64,000 nucleotides of DNA from Pegea sp. RAD2-039 (taxonomy: Eukaryota; Chordata; Thaliacea; Salpida; Salpidae). The stretch's first letter is position 1; each line of letters begins with the position of its first letter. Below, one piece after another: positions 5,942-60,954 of this stretch. A model generated the notes under the pieces. That model did not search any database, was not told the origin of the DNA, and worked only from the letters and a program-made list of their open reading frames with translations. The translations under genes and the position numbers were made by a program. The stretch spans positions 310,001 to 374,000 of the forward strand of contig JAQGEQ010000258.1 of NCBI GenBank assembly GCA_034620365.1. The letters are read 5' to 3'.

Positions 5942-8900
5942 ATGAGACAAATAACTTTTACACCTGACCAAACTTCTAGTGGTATTGAAATTCTTTCCAA
6001 CATCTGTGAGTCTGAATTTTTAAAGTCAAAAATTTCGGATGGAATCGATAAGGAGGTAAGATATTTGTTGTTGGCGTTTCAAAAACTAAGTGTTCAAGTT
6101 GTTGAAATATTGCTTATCATAAATTTGTGTTTTCAAACTTTGAAATCAAATCTTTTGTTTCGTATAGAATAAAGATAGTGGAATATATCTTTGTGACTTA
6201 GGAGAGGTAATTTCCAAACACAAAATCTGGTTGAAGATCTTCTCAAATATCCAATCCTATTATTCTGTCCGTTGCAATAAGGACCAGACATTTCTCAAAT
6301 GGCTTATATCTATGGATGTTGGGTTTTGTTGTGTCAACAAGGTATTTAAAGCTGATGAAATTTCTTAGATTTGCATCTAATCATTTGTTGGTTTGCTACA
6401 GACTGAAATGAAACTACTGATAGATCTTGGTGCTAATCCAATTAAGATCATTTATGGCAACCCATGTAAGCAAGCATCTCATATTCGATTTGCTGCTAGT
6501 GTTGGTATCAAACGAATTGAATTTGACAGTTTTTCAGAACTGAAAAAGTTGAAGAAGAATTACCCTGAATCTGAGTATGTTTATAACAATAAGTTGGTCG
6601 TTAACTGTGTATGTTATGATCATGCAAGTCATATGTAATTGCCTATTACTGTTTACCTACTTATCATAATCTGGCAGTTCATTAAAAACTTAGAATAAAT
6701 ACCAGTGATAAAAACTCCCCCAATGTTAAAACCAAGTCTACCAAATCTTAACAACAAATCTTGTGATTGATAGTTGAGGGAGGGAGCTTAGTTCTTGTTT
6801 GCTTCTACTTGATTATTTTTCTCTTTTTTCAACAGTCGTGTAGTTTTTTGTTATTGTATTTTTGAATTTCACTGTATGTGGTGATTTGTTTATATATCAA
6901 ATTTATAATGAAACTACAATTTCTTTCAGGCTGATTTTGCGAATTGCTACTGATGATTCAGAATCATCTAATGGTATGAATATGAAGTATGGGGCTTCAT
7001 TGCACGAAGCTTTCGACTTGCTGTCAAAGTCGTTAGAGTTAGAAATGAATGTAGCTGGCATTAGGTATGTTTGTTTTACTCTCATTTGAAAATATGCAAT
7101 CTTACCACTTATTGCTTAAACTATTTTCTCCTACTTTGATAATCGCTTAACATATCTCTGCTACAAAATAAATAGCTACAAAAACTTGAAAAAATTTCTA
7201 TTATCAATTGTACAAGTTGTTAAATGGAAGAGATATCTTGAGAACATGCAATTTCTTCAACATTTAAATATTTGTTTCTATTTTCAACATAAGCAGCATC
7301 CTTTACACTTTAATTAATTTTAGCTTCTACCCTGGAGATGAATGTAAGGATGCTGAAGCATATGTTCAAGGGATCAATCGTGCAAAAGTTTTATTCGATT
7401 TTGCATCATCTATTGGTATTCGAATGTCTCTACTTAATATTGGTGGTGACTTCTATGCCACTGAGAAGCAAGAATATTCTTTTACAAAGGTCTAACCTCA
7501 TTTTTTTAAAGGTTTAGATCAAGTGAACTTTAAATTGATATGTAAAAATAGAAGATGATTTGATAAATGCCAAACTGTTTTTGATAGCTCAACTAATTGG
7601 CTAACTTTCTATTTTTATCAATTACCAAATCATTAAGATAATCTTTTCAACCTTCTCTACAACGATAACAACTTATCTACTAACTTGTCGCTATTTTAAA
7701 ACATTTTCTAACAATTGTAATATCCTGAATGTCTGCTTGCTTACTTTTTTTAATTAATGTACATAAGAGGTGATGTAAATGAAATATTTGATGAAAGTGT
7801 TTGGAAACAGATTGGAAACGTGGTTAATGAAAGTCTAACAAAGACTTTTTCATCTGAGACACTGAAGAATTTGGAAGTGGTTGCAACTCCAGGTCGCTTT
7901 TATGCAGAATCTTCTTTTACAATATGTACTAATGTGATTGCTAAGAAGAAAGTCGATATCCCGGAAGATCTTTCTAAAGGTTTTCTTTTATTCACACTTT
8001 TTATCACCATCATCATCTACTACTTTGATATGAACTTGTTTGTTTCAGCTGGTGTTGGAGATAATTGTAAGTTTATGTATTACATCAACGAAGGAGTTTA
8101 TGGAGCTTTTAATTTGATGTTCACTGAATCTAGTAGTTACAAGCCGACTCCTTTAAAGGTTAACATATCTCAATCATCGAGCTATTATATGACTTTATTT
8201 CTAATACTTTATATCAATTATTTTTTCAAATAATATTTTTGGAAAAAACTGTTGGTGTTTGATAATGAAACAAGAATTAATCACTTGTTTGTCTTCTTTA
8301 CTGTCAACCAATTTGTTGCAAACAATCTTTCCCACAATCTTATATCTGAAACTCTAAACTTTTCAGCAAAAAGTTTTAATTAGTAATTTCATAAACCTTA
8401 AGCGAACCAAACAATCTTTTCAAATATTTTAAGATTATTCGAAAATCATATTAGTTCATGAAAACTACAAATATCAATTTAGTTTTATTTCAAAACAACC
8501 AACATTTTGTTGTAGCTGGTGGCAAAGGATCTACCTGTTTATCCTTCTAATGTTTGGGGCCCTACTTGTGATGGGATGGATAAGGTCTGTAACTCAAGAT
8601 ATTTTCCTGAGCTAGAAGTTGGTGATTGGCTTATATGGAAAGGTGACATTGAAATTACTTCATCAGAAACTTATTATAGATTTATTAACTTTCACTAGAT
8701 ATGGGAGCATATTCAATGGAGTACAGAACACATTTCAATGGCTTCAAAACTTTTTGTATCTACTACTACATCTCTCAAGATAATATGTTAGTTTGTATTC
8801 AGCTGAATTCGTATAAGTTGATGATGTTATTTTGTAAATAATTAATTTGTTAAATTTATGTGAAAAGATGATTCAAGTATGATTTGAAATTAAAAGTGAT

Positions 8901-9235
8901 TGTTTAATAGGGTCGAAATGAAAACTATGTTTAAAAGCAAACAACTTTATGTTGTTAAACCTGAATGTGAAGATCTCAAGGTATATATAAAGTTTATTAA
9001 ATGCTAAAAAAGCTTCCGTATATTTACCTGATTTCGGGAATATTTAAAAAGTTGATAAATAAAATGATAATTTTATGTGTACCGATAAACTTTTTGACAA
9101 CTTTTCTATTTAATTTGATAATCAATTAATAGCAAGCTTTTTTATCTGTAGAAAATCTGTAGTGCCTATTTCTCTGAAAAAGAAAAGTCGTGCCTAGATT
9201 TGAAAGCTTCTGAAGAATTAGTCATCACTTCTTAA
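5942..9235 (+). CDS. Ornithine decarboxylase-family pseudoenzyme, antizyme inhibitor-like (11 exons)
   Basis: Exons: 5942-6055, 6168-6341, 6402-6574, 6930-7064, 7324-7489, about 7768-7979, 8049-8158, 8516-8642, 8699-8786, 8911-8980, 9152-9235; about 484 residues against about 460 in mouse ODC. Family blocks in order: YLCDLGEVISKH, YYSVRCN, IIYGNPCKQASHIRFAA, LRIATDDS, LLNIGGDF, VATPGRFY, FMYYINEGVYGAFN, VWGPTCDGMDK, GDWLIWKDMGAY, HFNGF. In mouse ODC numbering the PLP lysine K69 is Arg (R73 here), D88 is Cys, H197 Tyr, S200 Asp, G237 Asp, E274 Thr and D332 Glu. R154, R277, C360, D361 and Y389 remain. Loss of K69 removes the Schiff base, so decarboxylase activity is not expected. The antizyme-binding region (ODC 117-140) is present and lysine-rich, which suits an antizyme inhibitor that would spare ODC from degradation. 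All junctions agree in phase except exon 5 to exon 6. Antizyme binding itself is inferred. Confidence 0.92.
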
Positions 9236-10400: not shown

Positions 10401-12865
10401 ACGAACGTCAAAAAGACAATTGTTCTATTACATTAGGTACGCGCGAATAATTAATAACAAAATTTTCCAATTGAGATCTTTTTTGCATTCTTAAGATTTC
10501 ACATTTGTTGTTGAAACTTGGTTAAACCCGTTGTATCCTGATAATTTTCTGGTTGATGGTAATATTTTTTGTGTTGTGACAGACTGTATGCCAGAGGCGG
10601 CGGTGTTTGCGTAATTTACAAAACATCACTTGCACCCAAGATCTTTAGAACTCAGATCGATACCATTAATTGTCCAGGATTTAAGATTATGGTTCCAAAT
10701 TTTGATTACTCAAAGTCCAAATTTTAGTCCTTTCAAAGTCCTGTCTACCACCCTCTAAAATTAATGATGAGGTTACTGTTAAGACCTCATTAAAGGTTCT
10801 GAAGAGTGTTGTTTGTTCTGAGATATATATTTTTGGGAATTTTAAGCTTAATAAGATTAATTGGAATAACCCGAATTTAGCATTTATTGGAAAATCGTTT
10901 AACATAGATAGCGACAATACTAATTCAGCCTTTCCAAGTCATGCCTTTGTAAGCTTCCTCGATGCCAACCTACCTCAGATGGTTACTTTCCCAACTTAAG
11001 TTAGTGGTAATACTTTGGATCTTATTATCACATCGAAACCTGAGAACATTATCTATGTTGATCAAAAAGAACCTTTTGCTCTGACATGCGATCACAACAT
11101 CATTGAATTCAACCTCCATCAAACTTTTTTTATGAACGTTAAAACTCCAAGCAAAAGGAATTTTTATCGTGGAAATTATAATAGTGTAAACAAGTTTCTA
11201 TCAGATGTTGACTGGACTTCTGTTTTCAACTCTATCGAAGACATCAATACTATTTACTCTCGGCTCACTAACATCGTTAAAGAGTCAATTGTGAAATTCA
11301 TACCTTTTTATAGAGTCGAAAAAAGCCATATTTACCCAAATATTTAAGGATTTTACAACAATTAAAAAACCTCCTATACAAACAAACTAAAGCAGACCCT
11401 TCCATCAAATCTCTGTACAAAGATCTTTGTAAATTTACAAGAAATATATTTCTAATTTCTACTTAGGAAAAGAAAGTGCAGTCTTATCTTTACCTTGCAA
11501 GAAAACGTTTTTCGACTTCATAAAGAAAGCTCAAGGCGAAATCTCAAATGCCTTTCTTACTTGATAACAACAACCAACTTGTGATGGAACCAGAAAACAA
11601 AGCTGAATTGCTAAAAAAATCAATTTAGTAGCGTTTTTATAACCGATGATGGCAATACTTCTTCTTTTTCCTACTCTGACATTCTCATAAATGTTTCTGA
11701 GATGATTAACCTTGACATAACGGTCGACAAGGAAACTAAAGCATTATCTTCTTTAAAATCAGTTTCCAACACCCCTGTTTAGTTTTAAGAAAAACACTTC
11801 TTCCTCTCTATCCTTACTTTTATTTCTAATTTTTAACATCACTTTAAGGCAAGGGAAAGTTTCTAAAATTTGGAATAAAGCTATCATTACTCACTCCTAT
11901 TTACAAAATGATTTGTCTGAATTTTGCTTTTCTCTAATTGAAAAACTCACTATCATAAGCTGTTTCCTAAGTTTAAAAAAACTATTATAATTATTCGTAA
12001 AATATCCGTGTTTATTTTATTTGAAATTAACTAACTCAACATTTTTGTACACCACACAAAGCACACAATATTGATTTCAAAAAAACTGATTCTACAAATT
12101 TCACCAACAACCGGTTATGAATTTCATGCTTAAACTGAATACATTGCACTATTATTTGTATAGCTGAAGAATTAAAGATCATATGACCAGTCATTTAATA
12201 GAGTATGATCAAATATCTGACGTACTTTATGAAGCTTTATTGGCTTTATGAAACGGAAATCTTCCTTAATATCTGAACTTACAGCCCACTGTGAAATACT
12301 CCCTGTGACATCATCTATCTCGATTTTGCAAAATCATTTGATTCTGTCCCACACAAGAACTCATTGATATTTTACAAAAATTAAAAATCAACAGCTATAT
12401 CTTCTAATGGATTGAAAATTATTTAATAGGTAGAACCCAACAAACTCACGCTGAAAGATCTGTATCTACTCTTAGTTAAGTCACAAGTTTATGCAAAGTT
12501 ATGCAGAGTTTCGTTCTAGACCCCCCTAATTTTTAATTTTTATTGAAGACCTCATTAAAAGACTTGTAGAAGTAAATGATGCTAGTGTGTTTGTGTATGC
12601 AAATGATATTAAGCTGTTATTCCTTATTAATCCTTTACAACTTCAAGCAGTTCTACACGTTGTAGAAAACTGGTCTATGAATTGGCAGCTCTGAATCCAG
12701 CCCAATAAGTGAGATATTCTTTCTTTCGTCGACCAGCTGCACATTTCTACAATTAATATTCCATCAATGGATTTATTACCTCATAAATATCTTCAGTCAG
12801 AAACCCTGACCTTACCTTGACATCTGAATTAAAATGGCACAATTATGTTTTTAAAACCTTTGCAA

Positions 12866-15444: not shown

Positions 15445-15894
15445 TTACTTAGAAAGTAGTAGTCGAGCAAACTCTTCATAACGGATCTTCCCGTTGTTGT
15501 CGATGTCTGCTTCTTTAATCATCTCATCCACTTCTTTATCGTTCATTGCATCCCCGTATGTCTTCATTACGCGCCTCAGCTTTGAGTTTGATACATACCC
15601 GACTCCCTCCTCGTCAAATACTTTAAATGCTTCTTGAATTGCTTCTTCGATGTCAATATCATTCATCTTGCGGTCCATAAATCGGAGAAATTCATTGAAA
15701 TCTATCACACCATTTCCATCGTCATCAAATTCATTGATCATCTGTTGTACCTCGGTTACAGTCAAGCTCTGTCCCAGAGAGTCCATGACGAGTGCAAGCT
15801 CTAGAACGGTGATCTTCCCATCTCCATCTTTATCAAATAGTGAGAAAGCTTTTTTGAAATCTATAAATTGCTTCTCTCTATAGTAACTTGACAT
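15445..15894 (-). CDS. Calmodulin-like EF-hand protein, intronless, third EF-hand degenerate
   Basis: The 149-residue protein has calmodulin length and four EF-hands in two pairs. Loop 1 (21-32) [12 protein letters not shown], loop 2 (57-68) [12 protein letters not shown] and loop 4 (130-141) [12 protein letters not shown] keep acidic residues at 1, 3 and 12. Loop 3 (94-105) [12 protein letters not shown] has Val at position 5 and Lys at 12 and should not bind calcium. The start ATG at 15894 is preceded by AAAT, a fair start context, and an AG (tactag) sits just upstream of it. The family role is calcium sensing with binding of amphipathic target helices. Divergence from canonical calmodulin (the N-terminus reads [17 protein letters not shown]) and the absence of introns suggest a specialised paralogue, possibly retrocopied. 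Troponin C or centrin are less likely because of length and helix spacing. Confidence 0.93.
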
Positions 15895-17270
15895 ATTTCT
15901 AGTAATCGTCTAAGTTTAAAAGATACTTTCATTAGTTGCTACTTTCAAAAACATTTTGAGCTGATCATTAAGACTGAGCTAAATAGACACCAAATGAATA
16001 GAAAGAGTAAGATAAATTGAGGAAGTAGCTTAAAACGCTTTGCTAAAAAGGAATTTAGTTTTATAGGTCTACATTGATGTAACTTTTTTATTGTCAAACA
16101 AATAAACATTATTAAGCTTATGAAATCAGCCTTTGCTGTTTGCTTATAAGGATTTATTGAGTCTTTCAAGCAATTTGAAATACATAAAATATAATTTGTC
16201 AATAAAAATATTGTAAGATAATTAGATTTTAGAAATTAGGTTGGTTCAGGCTAAAAGCTTTTTGTAAGTTTGTAAATCATTTTACAATTCCTTACAAAGT
16301 TTTATTTTAGATTTATAATGCCTCTCAACTAAGCAGCCAACTTTTAATTTAATCTTCAAACACACAAAAACTAATTATAAGAAGACTTCCAGAAACACTT
16401 TCAAGACTGTTACTGCAAACTTATCTAATTTCTTCTTGCCTAAATATCCTCCTGTTGTTTAGTTTCAGCAAATAGTAGTTCACTATAAGTTTTGGCAGGT
16501 ACCAAATTGACTTTTTGGAGCTTTAGTTATATTTTTAATGTAATTTCTCATGCAACTTTTGCTTAAAAGCGATAAAGATAATTCAATTGATGCAGCAGTT
16601 AATGAAAAAGTAATGATTTACTTGTAAAGGTATTAGAAGTAATTTACAGTTTAGGAAAATTATTATTAATTGACTTTTACATAAATTTTACAATTGCAAA
16701 AAAAACTTTTTGTGCAGTCTTGAACTAATTCTCTTCAAACACATAAATAATAATAAAAAAGCTCAAAGCATCAAAATTATTTCTGTCATAGGAAATTCAG
16801 TAATAATATAATTTCGTTTACATTTTACTTATACACAACTACAAGTCGAACTAAATTTAGATTAACATCAGAATGAAGCTGGTATTTTAGTGTTTACAAA
16901 AAATTTGTCACTTAATTTTATTATCCATAAATGAAAAAAATCTAAAACTATTTAATCAATAAATCGTCATATATAACGATAATAATAAAGTTTTGTTTTA
17001 CAAACATATAACAACTTTTATATTCAAAAGATTTCCATTCAGTTTTAAAATACTAGAAGTTTAAAAAAAGAACTATTTCAAAATACTTCCACAGTTCTTG
17101 TTACATCAAATTTTACATGTGCAAAACAATTTTGGTCTTTATGCTTTTAGCTTGCATCAGAAATTTAAATATTTATTAGTTTTTACTTAAAAAAGTTTTC
17201 ACAAATAGTTGACTACTATAACCAAGAACAAATTTCAATGATTTTATTCCAATTAGCAGTTTACTCAGAG
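15895..17270. other. Gene-poor interval
   Basis: Only short A+T-driven frames occur here (for example a hydrophobic frame at 15945-16202 on the minus strand), with no domain, splice context or repeat that I can support. Confidence 0.5.
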
Positions 17271-29996: not shown

Positions 29997-32900
29997 ATCT
30001 TGAATAATAAAAGGATTTTAACACCAACATTGGAGACTACAAAATTTCCCGTTCCAGCACAAACTAGTTAATAACAATGAAAAAAATATCTTTTCATCAA
30101 ACACAAAAGAATAAACGGACAAAGGCATCCTATTTGTGTGAAAAGTCATTATAATGAAATAAACAGTAGTATACACGATTGAAGCTTACGAGCCAGCATT
30201 AAAATCAAATCAATCAATACTTTTCATGGATTTTTACCAATTAACTGTCATATCTTTTTTCATTTCACTTCAAATTTTAGATTAAATTTAAAAAAAAACT
30301 TGTAAAAATGTTCCTAATACTTTGTATGGTTAGAAATAATTATCTTTTCTTTTACTATTTACAAAACTAACAGATTTTTGAATATTTTCTGAATTTAGTT
30401 TTTATTCGTTCATTTAATTATAAACTCATTAGTTTAACTTTAAAATAGAATTGAGCTTCTCACTAAAATATTATTAGATTGTTTTGAAAATTTAGAGAAA
30501 TTAAAAAAAAAGAAATTTAATCTGAATCACTATTCTGCGATATCAATGCAAAATGAGTCATAACTTTATTTCTTCTAAAACCTAAAAACTCTAAAAGTTT
30601 CTTAAGATCACAACTTGAGTTTACAAAAATTGAGTCTTATTTTTTACTGAGTTTGTCTACACAAGGACTAACAACAAAAACAGCCGTTCTTAATACACAT
30701 TGAGTGAAACATATTTAGAAAAGTACTTACTTGTACAAATCCTCTTTGAAAACTCGACTGTTGAAAGATTTTTTCACAATACACCAGTTTTTATGGTCAA
30801 AATAAACTTTCATGGATTTGGCTAATGTTCAGTCATTTTCTAGAACAGAAATTTTATTTTGTATTTGAAAAATTGAATTCAAACAAAAATTTCAGACTAA
30901 TGCTTGAATTTTTTTAAACTTTGACTTATTAAAAGAGATGCCCTTGATATGAAAATAACTTTAGTTTAAATTTAAAGAGCAATACTTTTGAAATATTTTA
31001 TTGCATTTATTGTATATACGTTTAACATTTGGTTTTATCTTTTATAACCATTTAATCTTGTCTGTCTGGTTTGGTTTGCTTGGTAATTGGTCGATGGTTT
31101 GGTTTCCTTGCATGTTGGAAAGGTTGTCAGGTCAACTCATAATGATGAATTGTCAAACTTTCTTTACCTACAAAAGTTTTTAGAAGTATTGAAAACTTGT
31201 ATCTTTGATAAAGACAATAACAGTTTTATTCTGCAAGTAGTACCAAACATATCTTCCAAAACCTAAATTATTGAAAAAAATTAATTATTATAAATTTGCT
31301 TACAACGTTCAACTTACAAAACAAATTTTCAAAATTTAATTAATAAAACTAAACAGATAAAAAATATAATCTGCGTTCGCTCCTTATCAGGTTGTAATTC
31401 TTTCTGAATGTAAGATATCAATGAGTTACAAAAAGATTTTGAAGTGTTTGTAGTTAAGTTGTTAGAGTAAATAGAAGATAAGCAAATCCTAAAAGTAATC
31501 ATCGATTATAATCAAAATTATAATTTATAAAATTAAATCTACTTTTACCAAAACTGTTTTTGCTGTAAATATTTAATCAAACGTAAATGCTTCAACTTTT
31601 TTAATAAAGTAAACACCTGAATACTGGCTGATTGAAATCTTAAAAAGCGATTTTTGTTATAAATGAAGTAATTTGAAATCTTAACAATTTGCTAATCATG
31701 TGGTTATTATTCCAGAAGATGTAAATTGAATTTTGTTTACTACAAATTACTTAAAATAAGAGTTACTAAAAAGCGAAAGAAGAAAAAGAACTGAAAGAAT
31801 AAGAGTCATAAGGAACATTAGGACATACTGGGCTCAATTTCATGACTAGTAGAGTCTCGAGCTAATCAATAAGTATCAAGGATTAAAAATACTCAGTAAT
31901 GATAAAATCATTTTTAATATTACTATAAGCTGTTGGCAGAAACTGGAGCTTCTGACGGGTAAACTTACTTCTACTGTTTGAAGCTGCAAATCTCTGTAAA
32001 GGATTTGGACTTTCAAGAATAGAAGGTTGAACAAATAAAAGCTGGAAGGAAAAGAAAACTTTCTATTTAACGCCTAAATGAAACTCAAATTTTAGGAATT
32101 GATTAAAGATAAGAAAGTTTAAAATATAAAAAGAAGAAGAGAAAGTCTAAATAAAGTTTTGGATTTACTATTTTGTTTACCACTTATGCAATTAAATAAT
32201 TCAAGTTTTACGGAAAAAAGTAAATATTTGAAATTTTGATTGACTTCAAAACATCAAAGAGACAAAACCTTTTTAACTTTTCAATTGAGCAGTCATTATG
32301 AGTTGGCTTTCAATTATATCTACAAATTACCATAATTATTGCTAAAACGTGAAAATTTAGGTTTATTTTGTCTCGTTTTTATTTCAAAATATAATTATTG
32401 TCATGCAAGCAATTGCTTAGATAAGTTTTTACGAAACAGTTTTATGCCAAGTTAAATACTACAAGATATATGCAGGCAGCTAAAATAGTTGAAATTAGAA
32501 AAGTTCATTGAAGTAAGTAAATAACTTCAAAAAATTACTCAATTTCTTTGTTATATAATATCTACTAAAAAACGGTAAACCTGATAAAATGCTGTGATGT
32601 TTATGGATATTTTTAAAATTATTCAATTCACGATTATTTACTGTTAAAACCAATTAGCAACATGCAAATAACGGAAAATGGTTGATTAATTAATTTTAAT
32701 GTGTTCAGTTATTCTTTTAAAAACCTCCAAGTTCTTAAAACTCTCTTTACAATGGTTTGCTATTACTTACCTATTTTTTATTGATGTAATTTTTTGAAAA
32801 GTTGCTGAAAAATAAAAAATGCCCATAAGGTACTGAAAATATTTTAGATTAAAAAAAGCTTATTGTAAAGAATAAACAAAAATGTTAAAATTAGCTAAAA

Positions 32901-44000: not shown

Positions 44001-47000
44001 TCAACGTTTATTTTAGGAAGAAATGCTAAAGTTGCAAATTTAACTCACGTATTTTACCCAATAAAAAGTTTGGTTTATAGAACTGAAAATATTATCTGGT
44101 ATTTCGCAGATTCAATCAATAATTTCTTTGATATAAACTTTATACAAGATTTAAACTTGACCCCAACTATTTTAAATATCTACTTCTGATAACTTTTAAA
44201 GTTTTTGATTGCAAATAAGGGTTTTATGATAAAACTTTAGTAATTAACAGGTAAAGGAACTAAATTAAATTAATCAAATTCAAAAAAGACTTAAAACTTT
44301 GAGTAAAGAGCAAATATTGACATCGTTGAAATTCGTTGCTATCAGAAATATCTCAAGCTTCTTTTGCACTCGTATTTATATCGCTATTTTTTGAACACGT
44401 ATTTTATCTTTTGATATATCAAACCGTACAACGCTTGCTATATATTGTTACGTAATTATAAATTTTACAAAAAATTTTTCAATCTTAATTAGAATATTAT
44501 TCTTTTTCAAAATGTTTACTTTTAGTAAGTTGTCTTAATAAATATTTCCCTCCAAATGAGGCATACTTCACTTTTTACACTTTGTTAATTTCATTTTCAG
44601 ATTTTCTACTTGCTTCATTAATCACAGCAAACTTCTCTTTCAATACGCTTCAGAGATTCGAGAAAAACATATTTGCAAAAAGCAAATCACTAAAAGTTTT
44701 GATTCTAAGTGACAACGAAGCGAGTAGCGACGTCCGTTTCCTTGACAACGTGTTCGATCCTCTCATCAACCTTCAACATCTTGATCTTTCCCGCTGCTAC
44801 TGTCGAAGATTACCTCAGCTCAGTTTTAAAACTATGTCAAAACTGACCACGTTAAAGCTACAGCGAAGCTTTCTCTACAAGCTCCCTTTATTTGAGTCTC
44901 CTCTCAATATGTCACGTGACATAACAACAAATCAAAACTCAAGTCTTGTTGCTAGTACCGTGTGGAACAACCCGCAACTTGAAACTCTTGATCTTTCTTT
45001 AAACAGTCAATTGAGATTCGATTCGAGTGGGCCGACTCCTTTTCCTCCAAGTCTTCGTATACTTGATCTCAGCTCAGATCGAATTCGAATGATTGATGAA
45101 AAGTTTTTAGAAAATCTTCAAAATCTTCAAACTTTAAGACTCGATAATAATCGAATCGTCCAAGTTGCAGATCGCGCTTTTATCAATATGACGAGACTCA
45201 TTAACATATCTATGACTTGGAGTCAATTGGATGTGATGCCTCAACTACCAGTTTCCCTTCAGTCACTAAAACTTCCTGGAAGTGAGATTACTAACTTGAC
45301 AACTGATAGAATGTCTGACCTTACACAAATAAGAACGATTGATCTGAGCAATTCTCAAGTGACAAATATCGAAAATGGCTTATTCACAAACATGAGCGAG
45401 TTGAAAACATTAAACTTATCCAGCAACAAGTTAATGTCCTTAAATGATGAAGTATTTCGTATAAAGTGAGTGTTTAAAAGGTCTTTAAATAGTTTGATAA
45501 AAACAATTTAAAACTTCTATTTGATTGTAAAGTTAATGACTTCTAAAAAACTTATCTAATATTTGATCTTAATATTTTAGATGAAATTACTTTATCTTTT
45601 TGTAAATCTTATTTTTAAATATTTTCAAAATTTTTAATCGAAAATGAAATATGTTGCATATCAACTCTTTTGTACAAACTTTCAATTAATGAACAACAGA
45701 TTGCATACTTTTTATGCATATCATTTGATGTAATTTTATTGAAAGATTGATTTTTTGAAATGATACTTAATTGAATACCTATTAAAAAAAAAAACAAAAT
45801 TCTATTAGTTGTAATATTTAAATCATGCGTTTAAATAACAATTTTTAATCCGGAATTTTATTGTGGCTAAAAAATCTATTGAAAGAAAATATTTACTGAA
45901 TGTTTACGCTCAATAATTTGAATGTAACTGGTTTGAAACATATCTTGTCATCGTAGCATTAATCTTTCTTAAAACATCTTTTAAAAAAGAGAGATGTTAC
46001 TTTAGATTATGATCTAAGTTTGTATTAATTTTTTAGCGTTGAATTTTATCTAAACAATTTAATTTCTTACATTTGAGAAATATCAAAAATGACATGGTTT
46101 AGATATCCACCTTCAATCTTTAAAAAGCTTACCTTGAATTAAAGTAGGTTTTCAAGTTATGGTTTTATGATTGAAAGCATTTCAACTTTATTTATAAATC
46201 CTAAAAAGTTTATGAAAAGTTAGAAACAATTAATGGCTACATAAGAAAATATCATCGAAGAACTATTTTAATGAATGCTTTTAGCAACTTCCTGTTACAA
46301 GTCTTTAACTGAAGCATTCAGGTTTTTGCTGTATTTCCTGATCAAATTTAAAACTTAGAAAATGTTTGTTACATAAAACATTAATAATTTTCTATATTAC
46401 ATTTTGACAACATTCAATGTATAGTTTTATAACATAAAAAAATCAATATTTTATCATTTAAAAATATTTGTTTATTTAAGAAAATCACCGTTATGTTTTC
46501 ATTTTATAGATCAGGTGCTGACCTCACATATTTGGATCTTCAGAAAAATGAGATTCAACAAATCAAAGGATCGCCATTTGCAACTCATGATAGATTGAAT
46601 GAACTTTACATTCATCAGAACCATCTTACAGTTATTGAAACGCACACTTTAAAAGGTCTAGACTCACTCAGAGTTCTTGATCTTTCTGTGAACGACATTG
46701 AAGACGTTTCATCAGATGCTCTTTCAAATCTTCTTCACTTAGAAGTGAGTTATTTTGATTTGTTATCTATGGATAATAAAAATACTAACTTTCAAGCAAA
46801 TAGTGATTAGATTTATTAGTCAAACTTATGTTGTACTTAAAGCATGAACTCAAACATCAACTTTATTTAAATACTTTCGAAATTTTTTAGATACTCTTAT
46901 AAAACCGATAACTTGTAAAGTTTATTACTCAAATGATCAAAGCTTTTTCTTTTCGTAAGTTAATGATAAAAACGATGGTAAATGTTCCTTAAATATGGCT

Positions 47001-48594
47001 AAAATATATTAATATAACATTTTTCATAAGTTTTTTCGACAATTAAAATGATATTCTATAAAGAAGGTAGTTTGAAACACTTGAAGAGATGAGAAAATTG
47101 TTGGCAGTCGATAAATTTTATCTGAAATAACTCCAATGACATTTCACTGGAGTAATATTGATGAATTTAATAAAATAATTTTAGGAGTATATCCCAATAA
47201 ATATCCCATTGAACTTTCAATAGCTTAATCATTCTAACTTCTATTTAAACGATTTCAAACGAAGGTAATAAGAATCGTTTAAAACGGTTCATTAAATCGA
47301 AATAATTGTAGAGTTGATTTTTTAGAGTCATTCAAATAGAGCATTTTGACAAAATGTATTTTTACAAAACCAGGTTTTACGATTAGATAACAACAGAATG
47401 GAAGTTGTTTGGGAGAATCAATTCAAACAACTCACTCGTCTACATACGTTGACTCTACACACGAACCATTTGATAAAAATGGACCCTCAAACTTTCCCTT
47501 CAATCACTTCTTTATCGTTGGTTGATAACCAACTTTCTTCAATTCCACTTTTAAATGCTCCAAAATTGACTGAGCTTTTAATTTCCAAAAACCAATTAAC
47601 GGTTTGTTAAAAATTTTCAAAATTTATTATATTTTATATTATATTATACTATAAGATCTAATTGGTGACCTTTTAATATGATTAAAGATTTATGAAATAA
47701 TAAGTGTTTATTTTTTATTTGTAGAAAATTGATGAAGACAGTTTTTTTAATGTAAAAAATTTGGAGTATATTGACTTGGACTCAAATTCAATGTTAATCT
47801 TAAACAACTTTAATTCTTTCGAAGTCTTAAAAAACCTTTCTTATCTTAATATCGGCAACAGCACTTTAAACAGTTTTGTGAACGTGCTTCTACCTAAACT
47901 AAGAACACTCAGTCTTGAATCAACTCAAATTACTAGCGAGTTAATTGTAAACAAGTCTTTTGTGGAAGTTATACCATCTATTGAAGATATCAACCTGTCT
48001 TATAATAATATTATCTATATAAATCCAAAAGCATTTGATCAATTAAACGCATTGAAGTCTGTTGACTTACAAGGCAATAATTTTGGGTGCACTTGCAAGC
48101 TACAACCATTTGTTGATTGGTATAACTCACGCCACAACCAACTTGACTTTGTTGCTGCTGATTTTTTTCTTTGTGAGGAACCTGAACAGTTTTATGCAGT
48201 TCATGTATTCGATGCAATGAATGAACTGAATTGTAGCGAAATAATTACAACAACTGCAGCTACCACAACAATTAAACCATCTTCAAAACACTCTTATTTG
48301 TTTTTTTCACTAATTCCGATTATTTCTATTATTTTTGCAATTTTCATTATTATTTTAGTGACAAGGCGTTGTCGCCGATTATCTAGAGATCAAAATAGCT
48401 CTCAAAGAGATGAAATCAGGCTAGGAGGTGGGGAAGGATTATGTTATGGATGTTGTATTTCGTTGTTTAAAATTAATATCGCCCGAAGCTCTGCTGGAGC
48501 ACATCGGTTAAATTCTGATGAAGATCAGCAAGATCTTATGGCCCCGTCGCTAGTAACTTCACCATTGAACGCAGACGCACCAGTTGAACTTTAA
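38021..48594 (+). CDS. Leucine-rich-repeat single-pass membrane receptor, 912 residues (8 exons)
   Basis: Exons: 38021-38065, 40281-40436, 41214-41356, 42853-43049, 44601-45465, 46510-46744, 47374-47601, 47725-48594. All introns are GT/AG and every phase agrees (0, 0, 2, 1, 2, 0, 0), giving one open frame. Residues 1-28 form a signal peptide (core VFFLLILITV). An LRRNT cap follows with cysteines 32, 36, 38 and 49. Leucine-rich repeats of about 24 residues fill about 65-740 (for example LTRLDLSKNALTSKALSCL). An LRRCT cap has cysteines 745, 747, 773 and 793. A Thr-rich stalk leads to a membrane helix (about 814-835, IPIISIIFAIFIIILV) with basic stop-transfer TRRCRRLSR, then about 77 cytoplasmic residues with a CYGCC cluster that could be palmitoylated. 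No TIR, kinase or Ig domain is seen. The product should sit on the cell surface as an adhesion molecule or receptor. The long exon 5 encodes about 12 repeats. Confidence 0.95.
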
Positions 48595-60069: not shown

Positions 60070-60474
60070 TTATACAGCTTCTGCTGGCCAACCAAGTTGC
60101 TTGTACAAGGAGCCATTTGCTCTACAATATCTTCCATATATTTCTAGATTGTATTCTTTCTGTGATGATCTCCACCCTATCTTACCACTCGTAGTAGCGG
60201 GGTACTTTGGTGATTTTCCCGATTTTACATAAGCTTCAATAGGAGTACAAGGAGAATGTCTCAATTCTTTTGGTAGTTCAAGTTTTTCACCCTTTTTTGA
60301 AGCTTTTTCTCGTGATTTTATGAATTGGTTTTCAATGTTTTCAAAGTGCTCTGTTATAAAACCCCATTCACCGGGCCACTTTTGAGCAGCTTGCTTTTCA
60401 CTGCTTACATGACACTTCCATATTTCATCATGATGCACAAGGTTAACTCCTTTGAAAGTATTTTGTTTAGACAT
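60070..60474 (-). CDS. CIMIP1: Ciliary microtubule inner protein 1 (C20orf85/LLC1 homologue), intronless
   Basis: The 134-residue frame is close to the 137 residues of human C20orf85 and matches its known blocks along the whole length: VNLVHHDEIWKCHVSSEKQA (human NLVGQDEIWK), WPGEWGFITEHFE (WPQNWGF), KLELPKELRHSPCTPIEAYV (ELP...PVTPVEKY), TTSGKIGWRSSQKEYNLEIY (TTQGFIGWRS) and YGRYCRANGSLYKQLGWPAE (GRYA...LGWPPEA). Human CIMIP1 is a small protein bound inside doublet microtubules of motile cilia, where it helps to stabilise the lattice. There is no signal peptide or membrane segment. The start at 60474 gives MSKQNTFKG just before the conserved NLV..DEIW block. No intron is needed. It precedes, on the same strand, the 386-residue gene with a gap of about 600 bases. 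Confidence 0.95.
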   Translation of the reverse strand: MSKQNTFKGVNLVHHDEIWKCHVSSEKQAAQKWPGEWGFITEHFENIENQFIKSREKASKKGEKLELPKELRHSPCTPIEAYVKSGKSPKYPATTSGKIGWRSSQKEYNLEIYGRYCRANGSLYKQLGWPAEAV

Positions 60475-60954
60475 TACTATTTTAGAAATTAAAAGGTTAT
60501 ATGTGTAAAAAACAAACTGACAATAGCTGAAAAAAGTTGCTTTATTTTTGAAAAAAATGATTTCTTAAAAGATTTCTTTATTTTTTTAAAACAACTGAAA
60601 TATATTTTAATTAATTAATTTTTTAATTCTACTTTTACGTGGATTAAGCTTTATATTATAATTTACAACAATAAGCTTGGTATATAGGGTATTTGAACTT
60701 TTATTTCTCTAAATAAAGATAAACATACAGCTTATAATGAACATAATATAATCGTAGAAAAATAAAAGAAAAAATTTTAAATACAAAAAAGTTTAATATG
60801 AGTAATGTAAAAAAATCTGCAACCAGTCAAAGTATAATAGTTAAGGATCCAAAATTACAAAACAAATAAAAAGTTTCTTACTTCTATATATTATAATTTA
60901 TATTATTAAGCTTTCATACTTATATTACATTTTTATTTTATTAAACATTGTTAT

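Follow-up and report, generated by a model that had tools for sequence, protein, structure and literature searches.

The window analysed here is a stretch of 64,000 nucleotides from Pegea sp. RAD2-039 (contig C34:310001-374000), belonging to a genome of 105.7 Mb in 387 contigs, and all genome-level results come from this one assembly. It has a guanine plus cytosine (GC) content of 26% and carries at 5942-9235 of the forward strand a gene of the ornithine decarboxylase (ODC) family with 11 exons. In the spliced model every intron is GT/AG and the coding sequence of 1410 nucleotides gives 469 amino acids with zero internal stops. One other ODC-family gene, called C6 hereafter after its contig, was found elsewhere in the genome. 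We put at even the chance that the window gene encodes a catalytically dead subunit of a heterodimeric ODC, an obligate pair with one working site, a reading drawn from sequence comparison. The exons of the window gene are listed below, with residues numbered on 2on3_A, the chain used as human ODC for the mapping.

Exon 1, 5942..6055, forward strand: start ATG; spliced GT-AG model; locus recovered by a search of its own genome with the protein.
Exon 2, 6168..6341, forward strand: CGT at 6270-6272 (K69R) and TGT at 6327-6329 (D88C); 174 nucleotides, same as the C6 exon.
Exon 3, 6402..6574, forward strand: A111G and the antizyme-binding element region 117-140; 173 nucleotides, same as the C6 exon.
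Exon 4, 6930..7064, forward strand: R154, K169 and G171 retained, R165G; 135 nucleotides, same as the C6 exon.
Exon 5, 7324..7489, forward strand: H197Y (7328-7330), S200D (7337-7339) and G237D (7448-7450); 166 nucleotides, same as the C6 exon.
Exon 6, 7811..7979, forward strand: E274T (7886-7888), R277 retained (7895-7897); weak acceptor.
Exon 7, 8049..8158, forward strand: Y323 retained (8099-8101), Y331T and D332E (8123-8128).
Exon 8, 8516..8642, forward strand: C360 and D361 retained (8567-8572), D364 retained.
Exon 9, 8699..8786, forward strand: Y389 (8710-8712) and F397 (8734-8736) retained, FNGF loop intact.
Exon 10, 8911..8980, forward strand: C-terminal tail; spliced model.
Exon 11, 9152..9235, forward strand: C-terminal tail and stop codon; spliced model.

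As a crude yardstick, a random frame of 469 codons at 26% GC would stay open with a chance of about 4e-19, and GC is 36% in the coding sequence against 26% in the introns. At the acceptor of exon 6 (7810/7811) the pyrimidine tract is weak, and the site was called by phase and homology. Both ODC domains of Pfam were over the cut-off, PF02784 (Orn_Arg_deC_N) with 190 bits and PF00278 (Orn_DAP_Arg_deC) with 74.6 bits, and the top match in the PDB was the ornithine decarboxylase 2on3_A (E 7e-100); with both domains and a eukaryotic ODC as closest solved match, the protein is a member of the family. Beyond residue 424 no solved structure was matched, and an Rfam scan of the window gave no matches. 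A search of the assembly for COX1 was negative too.

The original prediction, made from the letters of this stretch, stated that the lysine binding pyridoxal phosphate (PLP) is arginine in this gene, and the codon CGT at 6270-6272 bears it out. A sequencing error at this position was rejected, as CGT differs from AAA and AAG by three bases and a single error cannot explain K69R. Mapping on human ODC likewise agreed with the changes it had listed at D88, H197, S200, G237, E274 and D332 and with the conservation of C360, D361, R277 and Y389; beyond that list Y331 is also lost and Y323 and F397 are retained. The whole set of changes comprises K69R, D88C, A111G, R165G, H197Y, S200D, G237D, E274T, Y331T and D332E, and the residues retained are E94, R154, G235, G236, F238, G276, R277, Y323, C360, D361, D364, Y389 and F397. 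An active ODC carries the PLP lysine and an intact PLP site, and the window protein has neither (K69R, D88C, H197Y, S200D, G237D, E274T). The four residues that an ODC chain lends to the site of its partner (Y323, C360, D361 and F397, the trans residues) are all present.

Searches with both Pfam domains and both proteins identified as the other ODC-family locus (L007) contig C6 ~1012569-1016129, on the minus strand. The C6 gene comprises 11 exons and 425 amino acids, the first exon (24 nucleotides) being tentative. It shares with the window gene four consecutive exons of equal length (174, 173, 135 and 166 nucleotides), which points to one intron-bearing ancestor and not to a retrocopy, and the two proteins are 41% identical (150/363 aligned positions). 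In C6 the lysine K69 is intact and 17 of the 18 PLP-side (cis) residues are retained, the exception being Y278F, common to the window gene. On the trans side three of the four residues are lost (Y323L, D361S and F397Y) and C360 alone is retained, so this side is damaged and not entirely gone. Further changes are G362E, G378D and G399D, with an alignment gap at F400, and C6 reads W-G-P-S-C-S-E-L-D where human ODC and all seven bacterial and viral homologues used here carry T-C-D. The Pfam scores of C6 are 241.6 bits for the N-domain (190 in the window protein) and 58.4 bits for the C-domain (74.6 in the window protein), a lopsidedness in the same direction as the site analysis.

The original prediction had proposed a search for a second ODC with intact lysine, and C6 answers it in part: K69 is there, but D361, Y323 and F397 are absent. 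C6 is thus not an ordinary intact ODC, and since its losses fall on the side retained by the window gene they speak for a two-subunit enzyme as much as for an inhibitor. Queries with the domains PF02784 and PF00278 and with each of the two proteins, run over the 387 contigs and accepting E up to 10, found no third ODC-family gene. A third and complete ODC was rejected, all searches having matched only the window locus and the C6 locus; within this assembly and the sensitivity of the search no complete ODC was found elsewhere. An OKR_DC_1-type decarboxylase gene was not found in the assembly search either. The other gene proposed for searching, an antizyme with a +1 frameshift site, was present (L008; contig C245 ~384076-384294 plus upstream exons), with UGU UCC UGA CGA C at the UCC-UGA shift site. 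Its frame-0 leader stops at the in-frame UGA and the +1 frame runs on into the antizyme domain. The aligned stretch retains the residues matching human K153, E165 and K178, in a numbering that we partly assume. An S-adenosylmethionine decarboxylase (AdoMetDC) gene is present on contig C259.

As described in PMC4595762, most of the PLP site in ODC lies in the N-domain of one chain, and most of the substrate site in the C-domain of its partner. According to PMC3543441, Y323', C360' and D361' are supplied by the opposite subunit, Y331 and D332 not being primed, and PMC11912471 describes the substrate cradle as F397 of chain B with Y389 of chain A. When the residues are divided in this way, leaving out the shared Y278F, the window gene has 9 of 18 cis residues changed and none of four trans residues, and C6 has 0 of 18 cis and three of four trans residues changed. 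The asymmetry between both genes gives a Fisher p = 0.0045, with a residue list taken from the literature and chosen after seeing the genes.

A less selected test used the 59 positions invariant in human ODC, four bacterial homologues and one viral homologue. In the barrel 10 of these positions are changed in the window gene only and 4 in C6 only; in the sheet 0 are changed in the window gene only and 6 in C6 only (Y323L, T359S, D361S, G378D, F397Y and G399D). The Fisher p is 0.011, and 0.011 and 0.024 with alternative background sets. The sheet domain holds 19 invariant positions and none of them is altered in the window gene alone. Residues Y323, C360, D361 and F397 were all present in 7/7 of the bacterial and viral homologues.

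The C6 protein alone as query found no relative in the prokaryote genomes or viral contigs scanned. With the three-sequence alignment as query four prokaryote loci and one viral locus were matched, and in 232 genomes of one phylum there were matches in 4 (E up to 1e-30). The 59-position set comprises L016, L018, L020, L022 and L023; L017 and L019 were dropped for their incomplete reading frames. Three further loci were set aside: L021 occupies the position of L016, L024 is the gene already represented by L017, and L025 is a fragment. L017 is without a residue at 69 and the N-terminal half of L019 comes from a broken frame, and these positions of the two loci were left uncounted in the homologue reading. 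The ODC-like gene of L019, on a Deltaproteobacteria contig, was matched in two pieces, 31507-31977 and 31983-32588, a sign of either a broken gene or an error in sequencing.

Each active site of ODC thus combines the barrel of one chain, which binds PLP (K69, D88, H197, S200, G235-237, E274 and R277, together with Y331/D332), with the C-terminal sheet of the partner chain, which supplies Y323', C360', D361' and F397'. In the arrangement that we favour, neither homodimer, of C6 or of the window protein, would be a normal ODC. The heterodimer would have one complete site, to which C6 brings PLP and K69 and the window protein Y323, C360, D361 and F397; the second site would be damaged from both sides. 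C6 has the profile expected of such a partner, with 17/18 of the cis side and 1/4 of the trans side (C360), the loss being partial. Antizyme would act on the enzyme chiefly by way of the window subunit, where D361, the partner of antizyme K178, is retained, and sequestration of antizyme in the manner of an antizyme inhibitor may be a second role of this subunit. The fuller statement, that the sole ODC of the animal would be an obligate heterodimer of paralogues that each lost half of the site, with one working site per dimer and antizyme control on the dead subunit, falls in our estimate a little short of an even chance.

That such a site can work is reported in an earlier study cited in PMC5574924, where one working site remained when one ODC cDNA carried a K69 mutation and another a C360 mutation. 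In PMC4139326 human ODC carrying R277S, Y331S, D332E and Y389D has a dimer dissociation constant (Kd) of 15.9 uM, and of 52.8 uM when V322D and D134A are added; single changes gave 1.1 uM (Y331S), 0.03 uM (D332E) and 0.11 uM (R165E). Among these positions the window protein is changed only at 331, 332 and 165, so it should still be able to dimerise, and both proteins retain the interface residues D134, K169, K294, D364, R277 and Y389.

Several points weigh against the heterodimer. Y331S raises the Kd of human ODC 11-fold (PMC4139326) and the window protein carries Y331T. In the same source human ODC with D332E alone retains 177 of 225 per min, so the changes of the window gene are not equal in weight. 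Mouse ODCrp, 41% identical to ODC, formed no stable heterodimer with it as reported in PMC5518511, and the window protein and C6 are also 41% identical. An active Entamoeba ODC with changed 323 and 361, together with the C360 kept by C6, means that C6 might act alone. Trans residues are mostly retained in antizyme inhibitors and D361 contacts antizyme, so their retention is no proof of a heterodimer. The background set is small, a single bacterial phylum provides 4/7 of its loci, and the tests assume independent positions. Whole-domain identity to human ODC is less lopsided: 46/105 in the window protein and 44/105 in C6 for the sheet, and 97/239 and 119/239 for the barrel; a Fisher test on the one-sided matches gives p = 0.053. 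The genome search went exon by exon and scored the best candidates only, so a divergent third ODC could be missed. In planarians putrescine failed to rescue the RNA interference (RNAi) of ODC5/ODC6, and difluoromethylornithine (DFMO) alone did not mimic it (PMC5574924); that pair may therefore not act through decarboxylation.

The first rival is that the window protein is a decoy resembling an antizyme inhibitor (AZI; AZIN as gene), which would use its barrel and C-domain to capture antizyme and would free the C6 enzyme with no catalysis of its own. We regard it as possible but less likely than the heterodimer. The original prediction was of this kind, an inactive antizyme-binding paralogue, and part of it stood: the Schiff-base lysine is lost and an antizyme gene exists, with residues matching K153, E165 and K178. 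By its residues the window protein would be, like AZIN, an ODC homologue deprived of catalytic residues, with a damaged PLP side, D332E and most trans residues kept. AZI departs from ODC at five interface positions, of which the window protein is changed at three, by Y331T, D332E and, at the fifth, R165G. According to PMC3543441, AZIs mostly retain Y323, C360 and D361, and the PLP lysine save in a few. Antizyme-contact residues retained in the window protein are P113, Q116, D134, K141, D361 and N398, of which D361 contacts antizyme in ODC (PMC4595762), and of the two changes linked to the high affinity of AZIN the window protein has one, M140K.

The fit with AZI is less good for the residues behind its monomeric state, and mixed for its antizyme-binding element. 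Two of the four residues deciding the AZI monomer (R277S, Y331S, D332E, Y389D) are unchanged here, since R277 and Y389 are kept; reversing the four makes AZI a stable dimer in PMC4139326. The lysine-rich antizyme-binding region said to survive did so partially: 10/24 residues (117-140) are as in human ODC, but the rest differ, and C6 reaches 9/24. From the pair K125/K140 the window protein has S125 and K140, and it carries H119 and S137 as well. PMC4595762 reports two substitutions that lower antizyme binding: one is Q119H itself, and the other is at position 137, where the window protein has V137S. Seven residues are rated as most important for antizyme binding in PMC5518511 (119, 124, 125, 129, 136, 137 and 140), and only 1/7 (A124) in the window protein and 0/7 in C6 are as in human ODC. 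C6 itself, with H119 and E137 and no D361, is predicted to bind antizyme weakly, and there would be little need of a protein to shield it. The loss of three of four trans residues in C6 is left unexplained by an inhibitor. A simple AZIN identity of the window protein was thus not adopted, as R277 and Y389 are retained and its partner C6 lacks most of the trans half.

The second rival, which we consider improbable, is that C6 works as a homodimer with a reshaped distal pocket, as a low-efficiency ODC or on another substrate, the window protein being an unrelated pseudoenzyme or a dominant-negative partner. Entamoeba ODC is functional despite changes at 323, 331, 332 and 361 (PMC3543441), C6 retains C360 and an acidic residue at 362, and inactivating heterodimers were considered by Ivanov et al., as reported in PMC5574924. 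A mouse ODC paralogue has been described as a leucine decarboxylase, and a pure substrate shift of C6 stays among the rivals; but C-D at 360-361 is retained even in that leucine decarboxylase, and Y323, D361 and F397 are retained in 7/7 bacterial and viral homologues. If C6 were homodimeric, the animal could moreover have no ordinary ODC, though AdoMetDC and antizyme persist, and the mirror-image pattern would be a coincidence. The third rival, a decaying pseudogene or an assembly artefact, has the loss of the PLP lysine and of many cofactor residues on its side and is scarcely credible against 11 intact exons with no stop in an AT-rich window, the coding GC of 36% against 26% in introns, 0/19 sheet-domain invariant positions changed in the window gene alone and a K69 codon, CGT, three bases from a lysine codon.

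Other features of the window are as follows:

~10560-11347, forward strand, downstream of the ODC-like gene: frames resembling, by eye, remnants of a non-LTR (long terminal repeat) retrotransposon endonuclease; the frame at 11000-11344 had no Pfam match.
15445-15909, reverse strand: open frame of 154 amino acids with several EF-hands, calmodulin-like.
44489-48594, forward strand: two long leucine-rich-repeat frames, perhaps a single receptor gene of this type or two adjacent genes; judged by eye, the second frame ends in a membrane-like segment.
60070-60564, reverse strand: open frame matching Pfam LLC1 (PF14945, 125.9 bits).

The LLC1 family is linked to motile cilia, and its presence suggests a ciliated animal.

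ODC is described as an obligate homodimer in PMC3543441, and inactive homologues recur: they were described, and heterodimers raised, by Ivanov et al. 2010 (via PMC5574924 and PMC5518511), and paralogues that lost activity are mostly discussed as antizyme inhibitors or ODC inhibitors (PMC5574924). In the open-access literature on inactive homologues, prozyme-like pairs and invertebrate paralogues, a demonstrated natural split-site ODC was not found. The ODC of Entamoeba histolytica, an active though weak homodimer with D361N, Y323H, Y331F and D332E (PMC3543441), is substituted like C6 at 323 and 361. It is a dimer of one protein, and sections 18 and 19 of PMC3543441 describe no paralogue with the complementary half.

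Two known systems offer a likeness in the division of labour. Serine palmitoyltransferase LCB1/LCB2 resembles the proposed ODC in having homologous PLP-enzyme subunits, one of them with the PLP lysine. Its fold and reaction differ from those of ODC, and the two are not related. As a working hypothesis, each LCB1/LCB2 heterodimer has just one active site (PMC3794620). The trypanosomatid AdoMetDC-prozyme and deoxyhypusine synthase pairs are polyamine-pathway enzymes activated by a catalytically dead paralogue; the effect is described as allosteric or as a release from autoinhibition, and not as the exchange of active-site halves proposed here.

Vertebrate AZIN1 appears like the window gene in being an inactive ODC homologue beside a frameshifted antizyme, with a damaged PLP side, D332E and most trans residues retained. 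It differs in that the window protein retains R277 and Y389 and is without the PLP lysine, mostly present in AZIs, and has K140 but not K125.

A close likeness is with the planarians Dugesia japonica and Schmidtea mediterranea (PMC5574924). Loss of K69 in an inactive ODC paralogue is already published there, as K69S in ODC6 where the window gene has K69R. According to this source ODC6 lost K69, D88, R154, G171, H197, S200, G236, E274 and R277 and retained C360, D361, D364, G387, Y389 and F397, so that largely the same half of the site is lost in ODC6 and in the window gene. A complementary heterodimer of ODC6 with ODC5 (C360V) and one working site was proposed on the basis of equal phenotypes in single and double RNAi. 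The partners differ: ODC5 of S. mediterranea lost C360 and R277 and retained D361 and F397, whereas in C6 it is D361, Y323 and F397 that are gone, with C360 and R277 still present. Each planarian also carries an ODC with all 18 key residues, and no complete ODC was found here; this and the losses on opposite sides of the shared site set the window case apart. If the heterodimer were real, it would be a natural counterpart of the K69/C360 complementation and a clean case of a homodimer that became an obligate heterodimer as two paralogues lost complementary parts of the active site they share, an irreversible interdependence after gene duplication. Some "inactive" ODC paralogues, planarian ODC6 for example, might then be enzyme subunits and not inhibitors.

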